Of a stretch of 20,114 nucleotides of DNA, positions 1 through 16,931 are shown in pieces. Position 1 is the first letter of the stretch, and each line of letters begins with the position of its first letter. The notes below the pieces were generated by a model. It did not search any database and was not told the origin of the DNA. It saw only the letters and a program-made list of their open reading frames with translations. A program made the translations under genes and the position numbers. The stretch comes from an uncultured Clostridia bacterium (GTDB lineage Bacteria; Bacillota_A; Clostridia; TANB77; CAG-508). The stretch is from the NCBI GenBank assembly GCA_944393295.1, contig CALXZR010000076.1:1-20114 (forward strand). The letters run 5' to 3'.

Positions 1-692
1 CAGATTTAAGACATTGGTTTTTACAAAGAGTTGATATAACAAAAGTATTTGATTTAAATACTAATGAAAATGTTCGAGATTATATAAATAATTTAAGTTT
101 TTGTAGATATCCTAGAAGAAAAATAAAACATTATAATGATGAAAGTATTTATATGTCTGGAACAACTACTACACTAAAGATTTATAATAAATTAATAGAA
201 TTTAGAAAACATGATATGAAAAAGCTTAATGACAATGGTTTTCCTGTATTTGAGTTTTTACCAATTATACAAGGCTTTATTAGATTTGAGTGTGAGATAA
301 AAAAGAAAAAATTAGAAGAAGTATATAAAAGTAAATATATAAGAATAAGAAATATAAATTATAAAGAATTAGAGAAAATTTGGAGTGATGAATTTATGAA
401 AATGATAAGATTATTTGAAAAAGATTTAGAAGTTGTAAGAAAAAAGCAAGATGTAGAAAAAAGATTAAAAACTTTATATAAAGAAACTAAAGCAAATATA
501 TTATATAATTTTTATTTATCTGTAATGGTTGATGGTTTAGAAAATGTGAAGAAAAGAACTACTAAAACTACATATTATCGTAATTTAAAATTACTTAAAG
601 ACGCGAATGTAGATTTTTCACAAAGTACTAATATCAATTTTGACGAACACTTTATTGACTTCGACCCTTTTTCATATCCTGAGGTAGTTTAA
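1..692 (+). CDS. Phage/plasmid replication protein, gene II/X family (5' partial)
   Basis: The frame is open from the left edge (first full codon at base 3) to the TAA at 690-692, so the ATG at 153 is internal and the N-terminus is missing. The readable part carries the usual pattern of the Phage_CRI/G2P N-terminal domain: an RVDIT strand motif, then RYPRRK, then YMSGTTTTLKIYNKLIE, then RFECEIKKKKL. Proteins of this family nick the phage or plasmid plus strand and start rolling-circle replication. The C-terminal part is lysine-rich and helical, and is less conserved in the family. The stop codon is 1 base before the recombinase ATG, and the recombinase ribosome site lies inside this gene, so the two are probably translated together. 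Family assignment is fairly sure; the replicon type is not. Confidence 0.75.
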   Translation, partial: DLRHWFLQRVDITKVFDLNTNENVRDYINNLSFCRYPRRKIKHYNDESIYMSGTTTTLKIYNKLIEFRKHDMKKLNDNGFPVFEFLPIIQGFIRFECEIKKKKLEEVYKSKYIRIRNINYKELEKIWSDEFMKMIRLFEKDLEVVRKKQDVEKRLKTLYKETKANILYNFYLSVMVDGLENVKKRTTKTTYYRNLKLLKDANVDFSQSTNINFDEHFIDFDPFSYPEVV

Positions 693-693
693 A

Positions 694-1593
694 ATGAGAA
701 TTTTAGATGCAATAAATGAATATTTAGAACATCAAGAAATTATTGGTAATACTCCTGTAACAATTCATCACAATAAAATACATCTTTACCTTTTTGTTAA
801 ATGGGCTGGAAATATAGAAATGAAAAATTTTACCTATGATACTTATAAAAATTATATTTTATTTTTACGACATAAGAAAAGTATTAAAACTAAAAAACAT
901 CTTTCAAGCAGAACTATTTTTACATACGCAGAATGTTTGAAAGCTTTTATACATTTCTGTGAAAATTCTAATATTATAGATAATGATATTTTCTCACAGA
1001 TACAGCTTCCTCGCTATCAAAAGAAGGTAATTCGAATTTTAAATGAAAATGAAATAATATCTATTTTAAATTATTTTGATAGTAGTTCATTTTATGGTGC
1101 TAGAAACAACTTAATAATTAGTCTTATGTTAGATTGTGGTTTAAGACTTAGCGAAGTTATAAATTTAAAATTTACAGATTTTCAAAAAGATACAAAACTT
1201 ATTTTGGTAAATGGTAAAGGACAAAAACAACGATTTGTTCCATTTTCAAAAAATACACAAATTTATTTTGATAATTATCTTAGATTTTTTGAAAATAAGT
1301 TTGTTCCTTCTGAACAATTTTTTGTAGATGTAGTAGGTTTTCCTATTACAACAGAGGCCATTCAATCATTTCTAAAAAGAATGAGAGAAAAATTGCAAAT
1401 TCAAGACTTACATCCACACTTATTAAGACATACATTTGCTACTACTTTTCTTATGAATGGTGGCGACCCCTTGCATTTACAACTAATTCTTGGACATAGT
1501 ACTCTTACAATGACTGAACATTATGTTCATATTGCTGGACAACTTAAAATCTCTGAACAAATGAAATATAGTCCACTTGCAAATATAAAATAA
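694..1593 (+). CDS. XerC/D-like tyrosine recombinase (integrase), 299 aa
   Basis: A site-specific recombinase with an N-terminal SAM-like core-binding domain (about residues 1-100) and a C-terminal catalytic domain. All six expected catalytic positions are visible: R151 (GLRLSEV), K175 (GKGQK), H242 and R245 (HPHLLRH), H268 (LGHST) and Y277 (EHYVH). Length and motifs match Xer-type enzymes rather than the longer lambda-type integrases with an arm-binding domain. GAGG ends 9 bases before the ATG, within the end of the replication gene. The link to a rolling-circle initiator and the nearby tRNA-Asn suggest it integrates this element. It is unlikely to be the housekeeping XerC or XerD, given the context, but that was not tested. 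Confidence 0.85.
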   Translation: MRILDAINEYLEHQEIIGNTPVTIHHNKIHLYLFVKWAGNIEMKNFTYDTYKNYILFLRHKKSIKTKKHLSSRTIFTYAECLKAFIHFCENSNIIDNDIFSQIQLPRYQKKVIRILNENEIISILNYFDSSSFYGARNNLIISLMLDCGLRLSEVINLKFTDFQKDTKLILVNGKGQKQRFVPFSKNTQIYFDNYLRFFENKFVPSEQFFVDVVGFPITTEAIQSFLKRMREKLQIQDLHPHLLRHTFATTFLMNGGDPLHLQLILGHSTLTMTEHYVHIAGQLKISEQMKYSPLANIK

Positions 1594-1997: not shown

Positions 1998-2073
1998 TGG
2001 CTCCTCGTGTAAGACTCGAACTTACGACATTTCGGTTAACAGCCGAACGCTCTACCGACTGAGCTAACGAGGA
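1998..2073 (-). tRNA. tRNA-Asn (anticodon GTT)
   Basis: On the minus strand the 7-bp acceptor stem TCCTCGT/ACGAGGA closes a full cloverleaf with D-loop (AGTCGGTA), anticodon loop CTGTTAA (anticodon GTT, Asn) and T-loop TTCGAGT. The discriminator is G and the CCA end is encoded at 1998-2000. It has its own promoter and terminator. Its 3' end faces the integrated element, making it a plausible integration target. Confidence 0.95.
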
Positions 2074-2216: not shown

Positions 2217-2711
2217 TTATTTTTCTATTCTTTCGTAAGTTACATACTCATATTCTAAATTATTCTTTTCGTTTTTTACTCCAGCTTCTCTTTTTACTGC
2301 TTGCCACTCATCTAAATTTATTTTTGGAAAAAGTGCATCTCCTTCAAAATCTTGATTTATTTCTGTAACATACATTTTATTTGTGTATGGTAATAGCAAA
2401 CTATATATCATTGCCCCACCAATTACAAAATTTTCATTTTCATCATCTATATATTGTTTAATTTCAAGCATTGAATGTACTATTTCTACATTTTCATCTT
2501 CTACTTTAAAATCTGGATTTTGTGTAAAAACAATATGTTTTCTATTTGGCAAAACTCTTCCTAAAGACTCAAAAGTTTTTCTTCCCATAATTATTGTGTG
2601 TCCTGTTGTTATCTCTTTAAATCTTTTTAAATCTTCTGGCAAAGACCATAAAAGCTTATTATTTTTACCAATTATATTATTTTTAGCTTTTGCTACTATT
2701 ATACTTAACAT
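2217..2711 (-). CDS. folA: Dihydrofolate reductase, 164 aa
   Basis: Reduces dihydrofolate to tetrahydrofolate with NADPH in the cytoplasm. The sequence shows the family order: IIVAKAKNNIIGKNNKLLW at the N-terminus (Met20-loop region; LLW where many enzymes have LPW), LPEDLKRFKEIT with the substrate-binding acidic residue, IIMGRKTFESLG, then FVIGGAMIYSLLLP for cofactor binding and TEINQDFEGDALFP near the end. The length is typical. It lies 42 bases after thyX on the same strand with no terminator between, so the two form an operon. The pairing is unusual in that ThyX yields tetrahydrofolate directly and does not itself create a need for this enzyme. No second thymidylate synthase is visible. 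Confidence 0.95.
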   Translation of the reverse strand: MLSIIVAKAKNNIIGKNNKLLWSLPEDLKRFKEITTGHTIIMGRKTFESLGRVLPNRKHIVFTQNPDFKVEDENVEIVHSMLEIKQYIDDENENFVIGGAMIYSLLLPYTNKMYVTEINQDFEGDALFPKINLDEWQAVKREAGVKNEKNNLEYEYVTYERIEK

Positions 2712-2753
2712 TTTATCTCCATAATATTCTATATTTTACAAAGTGATTAATTT

Positions 2754-4172
2754 TTATAGTTTTTTATTATCCATATCTAATAATTTATCTATTAATCCAC
2801 AAGATTCTCTTCCTTCTCCACAATATCTATCTGTAATACAAGTTGGTCCAAGCCCTTTTCCTATAAGAGGTGCTACTTCTTTTACTTGTCTTGCTATTTC
2901 TTGAGCTATAAATCTAATTTGCCATTGCGCTTTATTACAACAACGTAATCTTAAAACCCATTGTAAATTTCTTGCAGACATTGTTGTAACAACATTTAAC
3001 ATTTGTGCTCCAATATAAAAATATATTAAATCTTCTTCTGCAATTCCTTCTGCTTTAAATTCTTCAAACATTTTTAAATTTGTTTCTACAGCTTTTTGAT
3101 AGATATCTTTTGCCTTACTTTTGATAGTCTCTGGTACTATATAATTTTTCATATTCCATAATGGTACAAATTCTGGTACTAGTAAAGAATGCATTCTATG
3201 TCTGGTTAAATGTGTTAATATTGAAAGTGAAATTGGAATTTGAAAACTAAAACTTACCTGTTCCAATTCTCTTCTTTCTTCTTTATGTAAAATATTATTC
3301 ATTAATTTTTCTTTAGCCTCTGGGTCTTTTTGTATCATTTCGTTTAATATTTCATTTGCTTTTTCACTTGAACATTGATAATGATACATTATATTACTTT
3401 TTATAACAATGTCATCAGCATTTGGAGTATAACTCAAAAGTTTCGGTTTATCTATAATTTTTATTTCTGGTCTTTCTATCGTATCCTCAAGATATTGAAA
3501 AACATTTTCATCATTCTTTTCAGCATTTTTTATATTCATTTTCAGATATGGAACTTTTTCTTTTATTATCTCGTATAAATTTTCTCCTAGTTCTTTTAAT
3601 TCTTGAATTCGACTTAGACGACCATACATTAATGAAATAACTAATTTTTCTAATTCTCTAGCATCTAATCCCATTATCATATTGCTATGAAAACAATATG
3701 GTAATATAAATCTTGCATCTTCAACATCTACTTCTCTATCTACAATTTCTCCATATGTATTAAAAAGATATTGCATATGTTTTTTATACTTTTCTTTTAA
3801 TTTTTCATTATCTTTATGTATATTTAAATTTTTATCTCTAAAGTCTGGTACATAAAAACCAACAGTTCTAAAGTCAACTTCTCTTCTAGATTTAACTGTA
3901 AATGACGTTAATCTATTTCCTATTATAGTTTGCTCTACTATAGGTGTAACATCACATATAGCAAAAACTAAATAATCATGTTCTATTATAGATTTATGTC
4001 CCATTTTTATAATTCTTTTTATTAATTTTAAATTACTTTCATAATCATCACAGCTTTCTAAAACTTCAAATACATTACCATTAAATCTAGATAATTTACC
4101 AGCAGCTGCAACTCTTTGAACTCTATTTTCTAGTTCTTCTTTAGTACATCCACCTAATAATTCAATTTTCAT
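2754..4172 (-). CDS. thyX: FAD-dependent thymidylate synthase, tandem two-domain form, 472 aa
   Basis: ThyX methylates dUMP to dTMP using methylene-tetrahydrofolate and FADH2. Typical ThyX is about 220-250 aa and works as a homotetramer; this protein is about twice as long and has two ThyX-like halves. N-half (about 1-215): GHKSIIEHDYLVF, then NRLTSFTVKSRRE at 86-98, then DARELEKLVISLMYGRLSRIQEL. C-half (about 290-472): QIPISLSILTHLTRHRMHS with RHR at 324-326, then SARNLQWVLRLRCCNKAQWQ with R410, then a Cys-rich tail (C445, C451, C458). The signature RHRxxSxNExSxRY is split: the C-half keeps RHRxxS, the N-half keeps S90, S95 and R97. The start has GAGG 6 bases upstream. ThyX membership is secure; activity of the fused form is inferred. 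Confidence 0.88.
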   Translation of the reverse strand: MKIELLGGCTKEELENRVQRVAAAGKLSRFNGNVFEVLESCDDYESNLKLIKRIIKMGHKSIIEHDYLVFAICDVTPIVEQTIIGNRLTSFTVKSRREVDFRTVGFYVPDFRDKNLNIHKDNEKLKEKYKKHMQYLFNTYGEIVDREVDVEDARFILPYCFHSNMIMGLDARELEKLVISLMYGRLSRIQELKELGENLYEIIKEKVPYLKMNIKNAEKNDENVFQYLEDTIERPEIKIIDKPKLLSYTPNADDIVIKSNIMYHYQCSSEKANEILNEMIQKDPEAKEKLMNNILHKEERRELEQVSFSFQIPISLSILTHLTRHRMHSLLVPEFVPLWNMKNYIVPETIKSKAKDIYQKAVETNLKMFEEFKAEGIAEEDLIYFYIGAQMLNVVTTMSARNLQWVLRLRCCNKAQWQIRFIAQEIARQVKEVAPLIGKGLGPTCITDRYCGEGRESCGLIDKLLDMDNKKL

Positions 4173-12420: not shown

Positions 12421-15400
12421 TTAAATCTTAGTTATATCAACTACTTCTAAATCTTTTTCTTCTACATTGTCGTCAATTGCTTTGTATAAAGCATTTACTG
12501 TATCTAGTGATGTAAAGCAAGGTATTTTGCACTCTACTGTTAATCTTCTTATTTTAAATCCGTCACGATTAGCTTGTTTTCCTTTAGTTGGTGTATTTAC
12601 AACAAAATTTATTTTTCCAGATTGAATTAAATCTATAATGCTGTCTTTTCCTTCCCAAATTTTCTCTACTACTATTGCATCAATTCCATTTTCTTTTAAA
12701 AATTTAGCTGTTCCTATTGTTGAATAAATTATAAAACCTTTTTCTTTAAACTTTTTAGCAATTGGTAGCATCTCTGGTTTATCTTTATCTCTAACAGTAA
12801 TAAGAATACTTCCAGTTTTAGAAACATTAGCTCCACTTGCTATAAAAGCTTTCAATATAGCATTTTCAAAGTTTTTATCTACTCCTAAAACTTCTCCAGT
12901 TGATTTCATTTCAGGACCTAAACTTGTATCTGCATTCTTTATTTTTTCAAAAGAAAATACTGGCATTTTTACACAAACATATTCACTTTTTTTATACAAG
13001 CCTGTTCCATATGGCATATTTTTTAATTTTTTTCCTAGAATTACATCTGTTGCAATATCTATCATAGGTAAATTTGTAACCTTGCTAATATATGGAACTG
13101 TTCTACTAGAACGTGGATTTACTTCAATAATATATACTTTGTCATTACTTACTATAAATTGTATATTTAAAATACCTATTACATTTAGTTCTTTTGCGAT
13201 TTTTTCCGTATATTTTATTATTTCCTTTTCATATTTTAAATCTAAAGTTTGTGTTGGATAAACTGAAATACTATCTCCAGAATGTACACCTGCTCTTTCT
13301 AAATGTTCCATTATTCCTGGAATTAAAATATCCTCTCCATCACAAATAGCATCCACTTCTACTTCTTTTCCCAAAATGTATTTATCTACTAAAATAGGAT
13401 GTTCTTGTGCAACCTCATTAATTTCATTAACATATTCTTCTATTTCTTTATCATCATAAGCTATTGCCATTCCTTGACCTCCTAAAACATAAGAAGGTCT
13501 AACAAGTACAGGATAGCCCAGATTATTTGCAACTTTTTTTGCTTCTTCTACTGTAAAAATTGTACTTCCTTTTGGTCTTAAAATTCCACAATTATTTAAA
13601 GCTTCATCAAACTCTTTTCTATCTTCTGCTCTATCCATATCAACTTCTTGAGTTCCTAAAATTTTTACTCCCATCTCTGTTAAAGCTTTAGTTAATTTAA
13701 TTGCTGTTTGACCTCCAAATTGAACAATAGCACCATAAGGCTTTTCTACATCCACTATATTTTCTACATCTTCGGCAGTTAAAGGCTCAAAATATAGTTT
13801 ATCAGCTATATCAAAATCTGTACTAACTGTTTCTGGATTGTTATTTACAATTATAGTTTCATATCCAGCTTTCTTTAATGACCATACTCCATGAACACTG
13901 CAATAATCAAATTCAATTCCTTGTCCTATTCTTATTGGTCCAGAACCTAAAACTAAAACCTTCTTTTTATCGCTAGTTTTTGTTTCGTTTTCTTCATCAT
14001 AGCTTGAATAATAGTATGGTGTTTGTGCTTCAAATTCTGCACTACAAGTATCTACCATTTTAAAATTTGCAACAATTTTATTTCCTAGTCTAATTGCCTT
14101 TATTTCTTTAATGTCCTGTTTTGAAAGCTCTGAAATTACTTTATCTGTAAATCCAAATTTCTTAGCTTTTCTAATTAAATTTGCATTCAACTCTTTCGTT
14201 TGCAAATCTTTTTCCATATTTACAATTTTGCTTACAATTCCAATAAAAAATTTATCGACTGTTGTAATATTATGAATCTCTTCAACAGATATATCTCTTC
14301 TTAAAGCCTCTGCAATTACAAAAATTCTTTCATTATCTACCTTTTTTAATTTTTCTTCTATTTCTTCTCTTGTAAATTCTTTTAGCTTAGGTAAAATTAA
14401 AGAATCCAAATTTTCTTCTAAAGAACGAACTGCTTTCATAATTCCTGCTTCTAAATTTGGTGCAATAGCCATTACTTCTCCAGTTGCTTTCATTTGAGTC
14501 CCTAAATCTCTACTTGCTGTTAGGAACTTTTTAAATGGCCATTTTGGTATTTTTACAACTACATAATCTAAAACTGGTTCAAAGCAAGCATAAGTTTTTC
14601 CAGTTACAGAATTTATTATTTCGTCTAAAGAATATCCTATAGCTATTTTTGTGGCTACTTTGGCAATTGGATATCCAGTTGCTTTTGAAGCTAAGGCTGA
14701 AGATCTACTTACTCTTGGATTTACTTCAATTACTGCATATTCAAAACTATTTGGATTTAATGCAAATTGAACATTGCAACCACCTTCTATTTTCAAACTA
14801 GAAATTATTTTTATAGCAGAAGTTCTAAGCATTTGATACTCTTTATTTGCAAGTGTTTGTGAAGGAGCAACTACTATACTATCACCTGTATGAACTCCAA
14901 CAGGATCAATATTTTCCATATTACAAATAGTAATACAATTGCCTTTTCCATCTCTCATTACTTCATACTCTATTTCTTTCCAACCAGATATACATTTTTC
15001 AATTAAAACCTCGTGTACTCTAGACATACGAAGACCACTTGAACAAATTTCTTCTAGTTCCTCTATTGTATAAGCAATTCCTCCTCCTGTTCCGCCTAAT
15101 GTATAAGCAGGTCTTACTATTACAGGTAGTCCAATTTTGTTTGCAAATTCAACTGCATCTTCTACATTGTATACAACCTTACTAGATATGCAAGGCTCCC
15201 CAATTTCTTCCATCATATCTTTAAAAGCTTGTCTATCTTCTGCTTTTTTTATTCCTTCAGCTTTAGTTCCTAAAAGTCTTACATTATATTCTTCTAAAAA
15301 ACCATTTTCAGCAAGTTCCATTGCTAAATTTAAGCCTGTTTGTCCACCTAAATTAGGAAGTATGCTATCTGGTCTTTCTTTTTTTATTATCTTTTTTACA

Positions 15401-15618
15401 GTTTCTACTGTTAATGGTTCTAAATAGATTTTATCAGCCATATTTTTATCTGTCATAATAGTAGCTGGATTTGAATTTACTAAAACAACTTCAATTCCTT
15501 CTTTTTTTAGCTCTCTACAAGCTTGTGTTCCTGCATAATCAAATTCTGCTGCTTGCCCTATTATAATAGGACCAGAGCCAATTACTAAAACCTTTTTTAT
15601 ATCTTTATTTCTTGGCAT
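12421..15618 (-). CDS. carB: Carbamoyl-phosphate synthase large subunit, 1065 aa
   Basis: Makes carbamoyl phosphate from bicarbonate, ATP and ammonia supplied by CarA, feeding pyrimidine and arginine synthesis. Both duplicated synthetase units are visible: [18 protein letters not shown] near the start and [18 protein letters not shown] around residue 560. Each is followed by an ATP-grasp domain ([36 protein letters not shown]). The C-terminal MGS-like allosteric domain (about 935-1065) contains STIGTAKFL and [19 protein letters not shown], the region where UMP and other effectors bind in this family. Full length. It starts 32 bases after carA with an AAAGGA site 8 bases before the ATG. It is controlled with carA from the attenuated leader upstream. 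Confidence 0.97.
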
Positions 15619-15650: not shown

Positions 15651-16712
15651 TTATAACATTTCAACAAATTCATCAAATAAATATGCTGTATCTTCTGGTC
15701 CAGGACAAGCTTCTGGATGAAATTGTACAGTAAATATTTTTTTGTTTTTATATCTAATTCCTTCTACTGTATTGTCATTTAAATTTATATGTGATACTTC
15801 AGCAATTTCAGGATTTAAACTTTCAGCAACAATATAATAGCCATGATTTTGTGAAGTGATATATACTCTGTCATTTTTTAAATCTTTTACTGGATGATTT
15901 GGTCCTCTATGTCCATATTTTAACTTTGCTGTTTTAGCCCCAGTTGCTAATCCCATTAATTGATGACCTAAACATATACCAAAAATAGGAATATTAGTTT
16001 TATATAATTTTTTAATTATTTCAATTTCTTCAGTGCAATCTTCTGGATTTCCTGGTCCATTTGAAAGCATTATTCCGTCTGGTCTTGTTGCTAATATCAT
16101 TTCTACTTTTGTATTATTTGGGTATACTGTTACTCCAACTCCTCTTTTTAGCAAAGAATTTACTATATTATCTTTTGCACCAAAATCTAAAAGTGCTACT
16201 TGCTTAGCTTTTGTTCTTCCATAAGTTACTATTTTATCAGTTGAAACCTCTTCTACAACTTTTCCAATTTCATATTTTTTTATTATTTCTTGTATAACAT
16301 CTAAATTTTCTATATTCGAAGTTAGATATCCACGCATTGTTCCACTATCTCTTAATATCTTTGTTAATTTTCTAGTATTAACACCCTTTAATCCTGGAAC
16401 ATTATTATCTTTTAAAAATTTGTCTAAATTTTCTTGCGTTCTAAAATTACTTTCATATTCTCCAATATCATGTACAAATATTGCTTTAGCCCATATTCTT
16501 TTAGACTCACAATCTTCCAAGCATACACCATAGTTACCTATAAGTGGATATGTCATTACTATTCCTTGTCCTGCATAAGAAGGATCTGTAAAAGTTTCTA
16601 CATAACCTACCATACCAGTATTGAATACTACTTCACAAGCTGTATCTTGGTTACTTCCAAATCTCTCTCCTTCGAAAATTTGTCCATTTTCTAAAACTAA
16701 ATAGCCTTTCAT
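15651..16712 (-). CDS. carA: Carbamoyl-phosphate synthase small (glutaminase) subunit, 353 aa
   Basis: Hydrolyses glutamine and passes ammonia to CarB. The N-terminal CarA domain opens with KGYLVLENGQIFEGERFG and contains NTGMVGYVETFTDPSYAGQ. The class I glutaminase domain has the catalytic triad: C247 in GICLGHQLMG, H332 and E334 in FHPEACPGP. The ATG at 16712 is chosen because AAAGGAG lies 5 bases upstream; the in-frame ATG 15 bases earlier overlaps that site. An intrinsic terminator ends only about 27 bases before the start, inside the carAB leader, so expression depends on polymerase reading through it. Confidence 0.96.
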   Translation of the reverse strand: MKGYLVLENGQIFEGERFGSNQDTACEVVFNTGMVGYVETFTDPSYAGQGIVMTYPLIGNYGVCLEDCESKRIWAKAIFVHDIGEYESNFRTQENLDKFLKDNNVPGLKGVNTRKLTKILRDSGTMRGYLTSNIENLDVIQEIIKKYEIGKVVEEVSTDKIVTYGRTKAKQVALLDFGAKDNIVNSLLKRGVGVTVYPNNTKVEMILATRPDGIMLSNGPGNPEDCTEEIEIIKKLYKTNIPIFGICLGHQLMGLATGAKTAKLKYGHRGPNHPVKDLKNDRVYITSQNHGYYIVAESLNPEIAEVSHINLNDNTVEGIRYKNKKIFTVQFHPEACPGPEDTAYLFDEFVEML

Positions 16713-16741
16713 TTTAGCTCCTTTCATTATTAAATTCTAAA

Positions 16742-16774
16742 AAAAAACACTAAATAAAAAATTTAGTGTTTTTT
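16742..16774 (-). terminator. Attenuator hairpin in the carAB leader
   Basis: On the minus strand a perfect 14-bp stem (16761-16774 with 16742-16755), 5-base loop, with nine consecutive T at 16739-16747 (partly in the stem), about 27 bases before the carA ATG. It lies after the promoter and before the structural gene, so it works as an attenuator if it terminates. The stem is AT-rich (core CACTAAAT) and may be only partly efficient. Confidence 0.7.
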
Positions 16775-16860
16775 GAATTTGTATTAGCAAAAAATGAGAT
16801 AATAAAAAAAGATGAATTTGCAATCTTTTTTATTTTATTATTTTTAGCAAAATACATCAT
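16750..16860 (-). CDS. Leader peptide of the carAB attenuator, 36 aa
   Basis: A short ORF starting MMYFAKNNKIKK and ending NTKFFI. GGAGG (16871-16875) lies 10 bases before the first ATG. The TAG stop (16750-16752) is inside the second arm of the terminator hairpin, so a ribosome that reaches the end covers the hairpin. The peptide has no arginine and seven phenylalanines that simply reflect U-rich RNA, so it is unlikely to sense an amino acid. The arrangement matches the PyrL leader of E. coli pyrBI, where slow polymerase at low UTP lets the ribosome catch up and block termination. Confidence 0.65.
   Translation of the reverse strand: MMYFAKNNKIKKIANSSFFIISFFANTNSKNTKFFI
16787..16831 (-). 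promoter_or_regulatory. U-rich putative pause region with upstream hairpin in the carAB leader
   Basis: In the transcript, a 9-bp stem (16823-16831 with 16805-16813, 9-base loop) runs into a 27-base stretch (16813 down to 16787) with 18 U, including runs of 7 and 6. It lies inside the leader ORF and ends 12 bases before the terminator hairpin. U-rich stretches slow RNA polymerase when UTP is scarce in E. coli pyrBI; a pause here is inferred. Confidence 0.5.
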
Positions 16861-16902
16861 TTTTTTATTTCCTCCATTCGACTTTTTACTACATTGTATT
16901 AA

Positions 16903-16931
16903 ATTTTACTATAGATTTTATTAAATGTCAA
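16903..16931 (-). promoter_or_regulatory. carAB promoter
   Basis: Minus strand: -35 TTGACA (16926-16931, exact), 17-bp spacer, -10 TAAAAT (16903-16908). The start would be near 16896, giving a leader of about 184 bases before carA. It begins 22 bases after the stop of the phosphatase gene. Confidence 0.75.

Follow-up and report, generated by a model that had tools for sequence, protein, structure and literature searches.

Introduction

The pyr operons of Firmicutes are normally controlled by PyrR-dependent attenuation (RF00515). In E. coli a different arrangement is described: in the part of the literature cited here, polymerase that is short of UTP pauses within pyrL and the coupled ribosome prevents the terminator (PMC10135430), and pyrBI attenuation needs this coupling (PMC5021804). 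In the sections of a 2010 survey drawn on here, ermC stands as the sole known leader-peptide system outside Proteobacteria and Actinobacteria, and a histidine leader is proposed in bacilli (PMC2965389). Later systems outside those phyla are known, such as B. subtilis tlrB, in which, according to the portions of the two sources used here, a NusG pause gives time for translating a short leader (PMC12288461) and the response to tylosin is brought about by ribosome stalling (PMC6851288). Coupling itself is reported to be loose in B. subtilis and, in the cited part of the same study, loose coupling is suggested for many bacteria from the distances between stop codons and terminators (PMC7858274).

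Here we describe a leader ahead of carAB in an uncultured Clostridia bacterium; the window denotes the whole 20,114-nucleotide stretch of DNA that was analysed. Among the literature matches listed, titles and abstract openings contain no report of such a carAB leader. We propose that it is probably a transcription attenuator of carAB acting through coupling of the leader ribosome to polymerase, like E. coli pyrBI, and we infer UTP as the signal.

Results

Layout of the carAB leader

A preliminary description of the window had placed a promoter, a ribosome site, a 36-codon ORF, a U-rich stretch and a terminator in this order ahead of carA, and the order is borne out, with all elements on the minus strand (Table 1). 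The 14-bp terminator stem with its T run is present as described, and the TAG stop of the ORF (16752..16750) indeed lies within the second arm of the hairpin. The U-rich stretch is likewise present, its richest 27 nt having 19 U rather than the 18 first counted. From the promoter spacing, the leader RNA is expected to start near 16897; promoter-like sites overall are not above chance in this region (17 found vs 15 ± 3.8 in shuffles). Of 200 dinucleotide shuffles of the leader, 199 fold less well than the leader itself (z -4.19). A generic terminator scan found none and did not list the leader hairpin, because the hairpin has two G-C pairs and the scan requires three.

Table 1. Positions of the carAB leader elements and the genes that follow them in the window
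Feature	Positions	Strand	Details
Predicted sigma-70-type promoter	16903..16931	-	TTGACA-17-TAAAAT, 11/12 matches
5' RNA segment	16881..16891	-	UAGUAAAAAGU; could pair with 16785..16795 (tentative)
Shine-Dalgarno of leader ORF	16871..16875	-	GGAGG
Leader ORF	16750..16860	-	36 codons, MMYFAKNNKIKKIANSSFFIISFFANTNSKNTKFFI; TAG stop within terminator
Putative pause hairpin	16805..16831	-	9 bp; ends 30 nt ahead of terminator hairpin
U-rich tract	16786..16812	-	19 U in 27; within leader ORF
Intrinsic terminator	16739..16774	-	14-bp stem (hairpin 16774..16742), 5-nt loop, T run
carA	15651..16712 (longer ORF call from 16727)	-	Carbamoyl-phosphate synthase small subunit
carB	12421..15618	-	Carbamoyl-phosphate synthase large subunit; after carA

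For carA, the start at 16712 is more likely than the longer ATG at 16727, judging by Shine-Dalgarno spacing. The terminator hairpin is separated from the 16712 start by 29 nt, which leaves too little room for a carA promoter in the window.

We note that the window carries ATGTAG, a start codon with an immediate stop, near 16893, and that leader RNA starts in relatives often carry ATG or GTG with an immediate stop (ATGTAA, GTGTAA; for example L045, L057 and L063). Elsewhere in the window, a replication-protein-like ORF and an integrase-like ORF, presumably a tyrosine integrase, lie beside a tRNA gene (3..1593 and 2001..2073), and the region is possibly one end of an integrated element. At 2217..4172, a dihydrofolate reductase-type gene adjoins a gene for a ThyX-type thymidylate synthase of 472 aa, which matches its own family in two stretches.

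Distribution of the leader among relatives

Searching genome contigs for carA yielded 43 loci, and the leader, comprising ORF, U-rich tract and terminator, was seen in 11 of them (L001, L003-L009, L014, L015, L035). In wider draws, carA was matched in 47 of 53 genomes of the genus at 1e-60 (6/53 without), in 229 of 390 genomes of the family at E 0.001, and in 78 of 287 genomes of the order at 1e-60; upstream regions were fetched and read for part of the carA-matching genomes. The curated collection holds 70 leaders including that of the window; a diverse subset of 42 has pairwise identities below 80%. Outside this collection, L171, L174 and L185 show the leader.

In the genus of the closest relatives, 40 of the 47 carA-bearing genomes have a curated leader and three more show one: L112, L074, which is truncated by a contig end, and L196, whose hairpin is weaker. 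Three of the 47 have no leader (L109, L194, L195), the gene preceding carA there being what we take to be greA, and in one of the 47 (L046) the upstream region is cut by a contig edge. The closest carA relatives of the window, G001 and G222 (76% identity), both belong to this genus, and a second carA lineage (~50% identical) also has the leader. In other branches no leader was seen, and carA stands behind what is presumably tsf or behind a plain promoter. In a class-wide sample of 30 fetched loci, the position of carA could be established in 18; in one of these, L222, an ORF runs into a hairpin ~209 nt upstream of carA, an arrangement that we did not judge to be a leader. These 30 were the top-scoring loci among the carA matches, which came from 199 of 291 genomes, and sampling beyond the order is therefore thin.

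An alignment check across relatives had been suggested, and it finds the ORF, the U-rich tract and the stop in the hairpin kept while the peptide varies. The expectation of a conserved ORF length did not hold, as curated leaders ending at the hairpin span 25-50 codons.

In 11 of 16 loci examined (L027, L029-L031, L033-L035, L037-L040), carA, and often carB as well, is split between frames. An in-frame CGG lies within 30 nt of all 27 frame junctions, the shift is +1 at 26 of the 27, and reading resumes at a GGN where intact relatives have Gly (three kinds of site, assigned by eye). Seven in-frame CGG also occur within matched stretches, and five other loci have no junction. The sequence pattern resembles a +1 shift, or a four-base decoding step, at a CGG codon that is unassigned. 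None of the 6079 codons in the window is CGG. In Mycoplasma capricolum CGG is an unassigned codon, according to the cited part of PMC8629427.

Pyrimidine genes in the leader-bearing group

The window leader had been said to lack a PyrR-type loop, and indeed an Rfam scan gives no PyrR match in the window. A PyrR-type antiterminator, whose discovery would have spoken against the proposed reading, was also sought in relatives: the PyrR RNA site (RF00515) was found in 0 of 28 draft genomes (3 of 14 controls matching, 2 of 14 over cut-off). The PyrR protein was over cut-off in 0 of 23 draft genomes, a set to which the leader-bearing genus contributes 12 (controls 6/14); sub-cut-off matches in 20 of the 23 are presumed to be other phosphoribosyltransferases. 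Ornithine carbamoyltransferase was over cut-off in 0 of 30 draft genomes (controls 13/14), with sub-cut-off matches in 29 of the 30, mostly at pyrB positions. Aspartate carbamoyltransferase was over cut-off in 26 of 28 draft genomes and argG in 4 of 30. Given that PyrR, its RNA site and ornithine carbamoyltransferase were not found in these drafts, whose completeness is not stated, carAB appears to serve pyrimidines, with carbamoyl phosphate going there; and as ornithine carbamoyltransferase was not found, pyrimidines are the logical signal for the leader and arginine an unlikely one.

At pyrB in the same genomes, where 25 of 27 upstream regions were located, no such leader was found (one match to the rule given below, not U-rich). 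Upstream of pyrB in L117-L119, L122, L123, L128 and L140 we note, by eye, a small recurrent element: a stretch resembling a promoter comes with the first codons of a small ORF, which reads MRWF or MRWFLN..., with an MR-stop-like variant in L140; the small-ORF start is followed by AAAATCCCCAAAT and then by a variable hairpin. The ORF after pyrB in L123 is presumably pyrI.

Constraint on frame, U content and stop placement

The leader peptides differ widely: that of the window begins MMYFAKNNKIKK..., whereas L179 of the second lineage has MKNYLKKTNCINISAVFLIVVLFSFAF. Among the 42 diverse leaders, which were picked for having an ORF and thereby favour this count, the leader frame is open in 42 of 42, compared with 0 and 2 for the two alternative frames and 2.3 expected by chance. 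This conservation of frame suggests that the ORF is translated. The T content of the U tract differs from that of carA windows (p 1e-25), and T-ending codons make up 148 of 221 in the U tract vs 713 of 1333 in carA windows selected in the same way (p 1.9e-4).

A translated leader could sense amino-acid supply or the general translation rate rather than UTP. Codons for Phe, Ile, Leu and Lys abound in the leaders, the first three being candidates for such a role, and where a ribosome stands relative to the hairpin would likewise reflect how fast it translates. However, the U preference just described extends to synonymous sites, and, compared by eye across clades, the peptides have no residue past the start in common. 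The window peptide has no Arg, and the listed leaders of relatives have no run of Arg codons, such as an amino-acid leader-peptide attenuator for arginine would have. Furthermore, the window fold shows no antiterminator structure competing with the terminator, and thus a ribosome stalled upstream would not spare carA. Together, these observations make a signal other than UTP unlikely.

The placement of the stop codon is also kept. In all 42 diverse leaders, against 4 of 21 ordinary genes with terminators, the first base of the hairpin lies no later than the final base of the stop codon; the hairpin starts in this comparison were partly placed by eye. When hairpin edges are set automatically, 39 of the 42 stops overlap the hairpin, those of L106 and L189 adjoin it within 1 nt, and that of L176 comes after it; L176 is the sole curated leader that reads through the terminator hairpin, as E. 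coli pyrL does. Among all 70 curated leaders, L062 has its stop 3 nt ahead of the hairpin. We applied a rule requiring an ATG ORF with a Shine-Dalgarno sequence that ends in a terminator, and calling the ORF U-rich if 27 nt hold at least 15 U; it was set after leaders had been inspected and was used alike on carA, control genes and pyrB. The rule matches 60 of 111 carA upstream regions (window included), 54 with a U-rich ORF, in a count that omits L110, L112, L113 and L046 and in which some regions come from close kin. It matches 3 of 146 other genes, 2 of them U-rich; in L035, one of these two U-rich cases is in fact the initial fragment of carA. Among 25 pyrB upstream regions it matches 1, which is not U-rich.

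These counts bear on the possibility that the ORF is an ordinary small gene with its own terminator, and that carA is expressed by constant leaky read-through and is unregulated at this point. Stops near terminators are reported, in the cited part of the source, for bacteria with runaway transcription (PMC7858274), and the 4 ordinary genes above overlap their hairpins as well. Against this stand the much more regular placement of the leader stop, the unconserved peptides, the occurrence of the pattern ahead of carA but rarely ahead of other genes, and the lack of space for a carA promoter in the window, and we regard an ordinary gene as quite improbable. Frame, U content (also at synonymous sites) and stop placement are thus what is kept across the leaders, whereas the peptides diverge.

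Putative pause hairpin, NusG and possible pairing of the 5' end

The pause hairpin of the window is significant against shuffles of its own leader (p 0.01 and 0.022). In subclade B, a sister subclade, it is significant in 8 of 9 or 9 of 9 leaders (two runs), and two base pairs are changed on both sides, with 92.3% of cells paired; the covariation score exceeds that of all 500 shuffles, and the number of such pairs is not above shuffles. In group A, the first group taken more widely, it is significant in 1 of 19 leaders, the window itself, and in 1 of 14 of group C, the second lineage. Over the 42 leaders less than 80% identical the overall p is 2e-4, driven by subclade B; a first test on 40 leaders, giving p 3e-7, was inflated by related sequences and was discarded. 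The pause hairpin is thus supported in one subclade and the window only.

An Asn-Thr pair at the site of N81/T82, which marks pro-pausing NusG in the cited part of PMC12288461, is present in NusG of all 7 relatives checked. The NusG motif TTNTTT is not above composition in the leaders (34 of 42 vs 35 in shuffles).

Pairing between the 5' end of the RNA and the U tract had looked striking by eye and proved weak against shuffles and partner swaps. Over 40 leaders, it gives a Fisher p of 0.03 and a permutation p of 0.016, with 3 of 40 individually below 0.05 and the window at p 0.375, and we regard the pairing as tentative. That an RNA-binding protein or a small-molecule riboswitch of unknown identity acts on the terminator, the ORF being incidental, could draw on this suggested pairing and on the covarying hairpin of one subclade, but an Rfam scan of the leader gives no family match at E 1 and the hairpin is not common to the clades whereas the ORF and the U tract are, so that this explanation is very improbable.

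Discussion

The conserved layout of the leaders, and the fact that PyrR was not found in the genomes searched, support the reading of the preliminary description, a pyrBI-like attenuator of carAB, for this group of gut clostridia. In such an attenuator, polymerase supplied with ample UTP would cross the U-rich tract fast and leave the ribosome behind, the terminator hairpin would fold, and transcription would halt ahead of carA. When UTP is low, polymerase would slow in the U-rich tract, perhaps aided in the window by the pause hairpin and a pro-pausing NusG, and the ribosome would catch up and reach the stop codon at or in the hairpin. As the stop is so placed, a ribosome that keeps up to it would presumably cover the hairpin, and polymerase would read on into carAB. 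In this scheme, leader translation, pausing at low UTP, occlusion by the ribosome and the direction of regulation are deductions.

With loose coupling reported for B. subtilis and suggested for many bacteria, a nearby terminator by itself means little, and the leader would have to create coupling locally. If loose coupling holds here, this local creation of coupling would be the most interesting, and is the least tested, part of the proposal. We can also sketch a fuller scenario, which we hold tentatively and consider doubtful as a whole: a UTP switch of the pyrBI type had an independent origin on carAB, among clostridia that lack PyrR and in a phylum whose polymerase presumably outruns the ribosomes, the pause in the U tract rebuilds coupling locally, and the emerged U tract pairs with the 5' end of the RNA, closing the window for late ribosome loading.

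If the attenuator operates as proposed, control of pyrimidine genes by UTP through coupling would not be confined to enteric bacteria, the UTP-coupling switch could also sit on the other pyrimidine operon, carAB, and a coupling-based switch would work in a phylum for which loose coupling is assumed. The leader also provides a natural setting in which to ask if coupling can be restored by pausing.

Among known systems, PyrR attenuation resembles the carAB leader in being attenuation of pyrimidine genes in the same phylum, and differs in its regulator, with PyrR over cut-off in none of 23 genomes and its RNA site in none of 28. B. subtilis tlrB shares the mark of a pro-pausing NusG, as judged from the relatives checked; unlike tlrB, the carAB leaders show no TTNTTT enrichment, and the tlrB signal is tylosin. 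The closest likeness is to E. coli pyrBI, in which a leader ORF (44 codons in pyrL, 36 in the window) also overlaps the terminator, a U-rich tract also precedes it, and a pyrimidine gene also comes next. The same scripts find within the pyrL ORF a 6-bp hairpin (p 0.05) that ends 38 nt before the terminator; the putative pause hairpin in the window ORF ends 30 nt before. The widely different leader peptides would fit indifference to the peptide, a pyrBI trait. The clostridial switch differs in sitting on carAB instead of pyrBI, in being richer in U (19 vs at most 13 U in 27 in pyrL), and in that the window ORF stops inside the hairpin through which the pyrL ORF reads. Since the position of the stop is thus a variant, we do not file the carAB leader as the E. 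coli element itself, and compare it with pyrBI as a proposed attenuator of the same kind.
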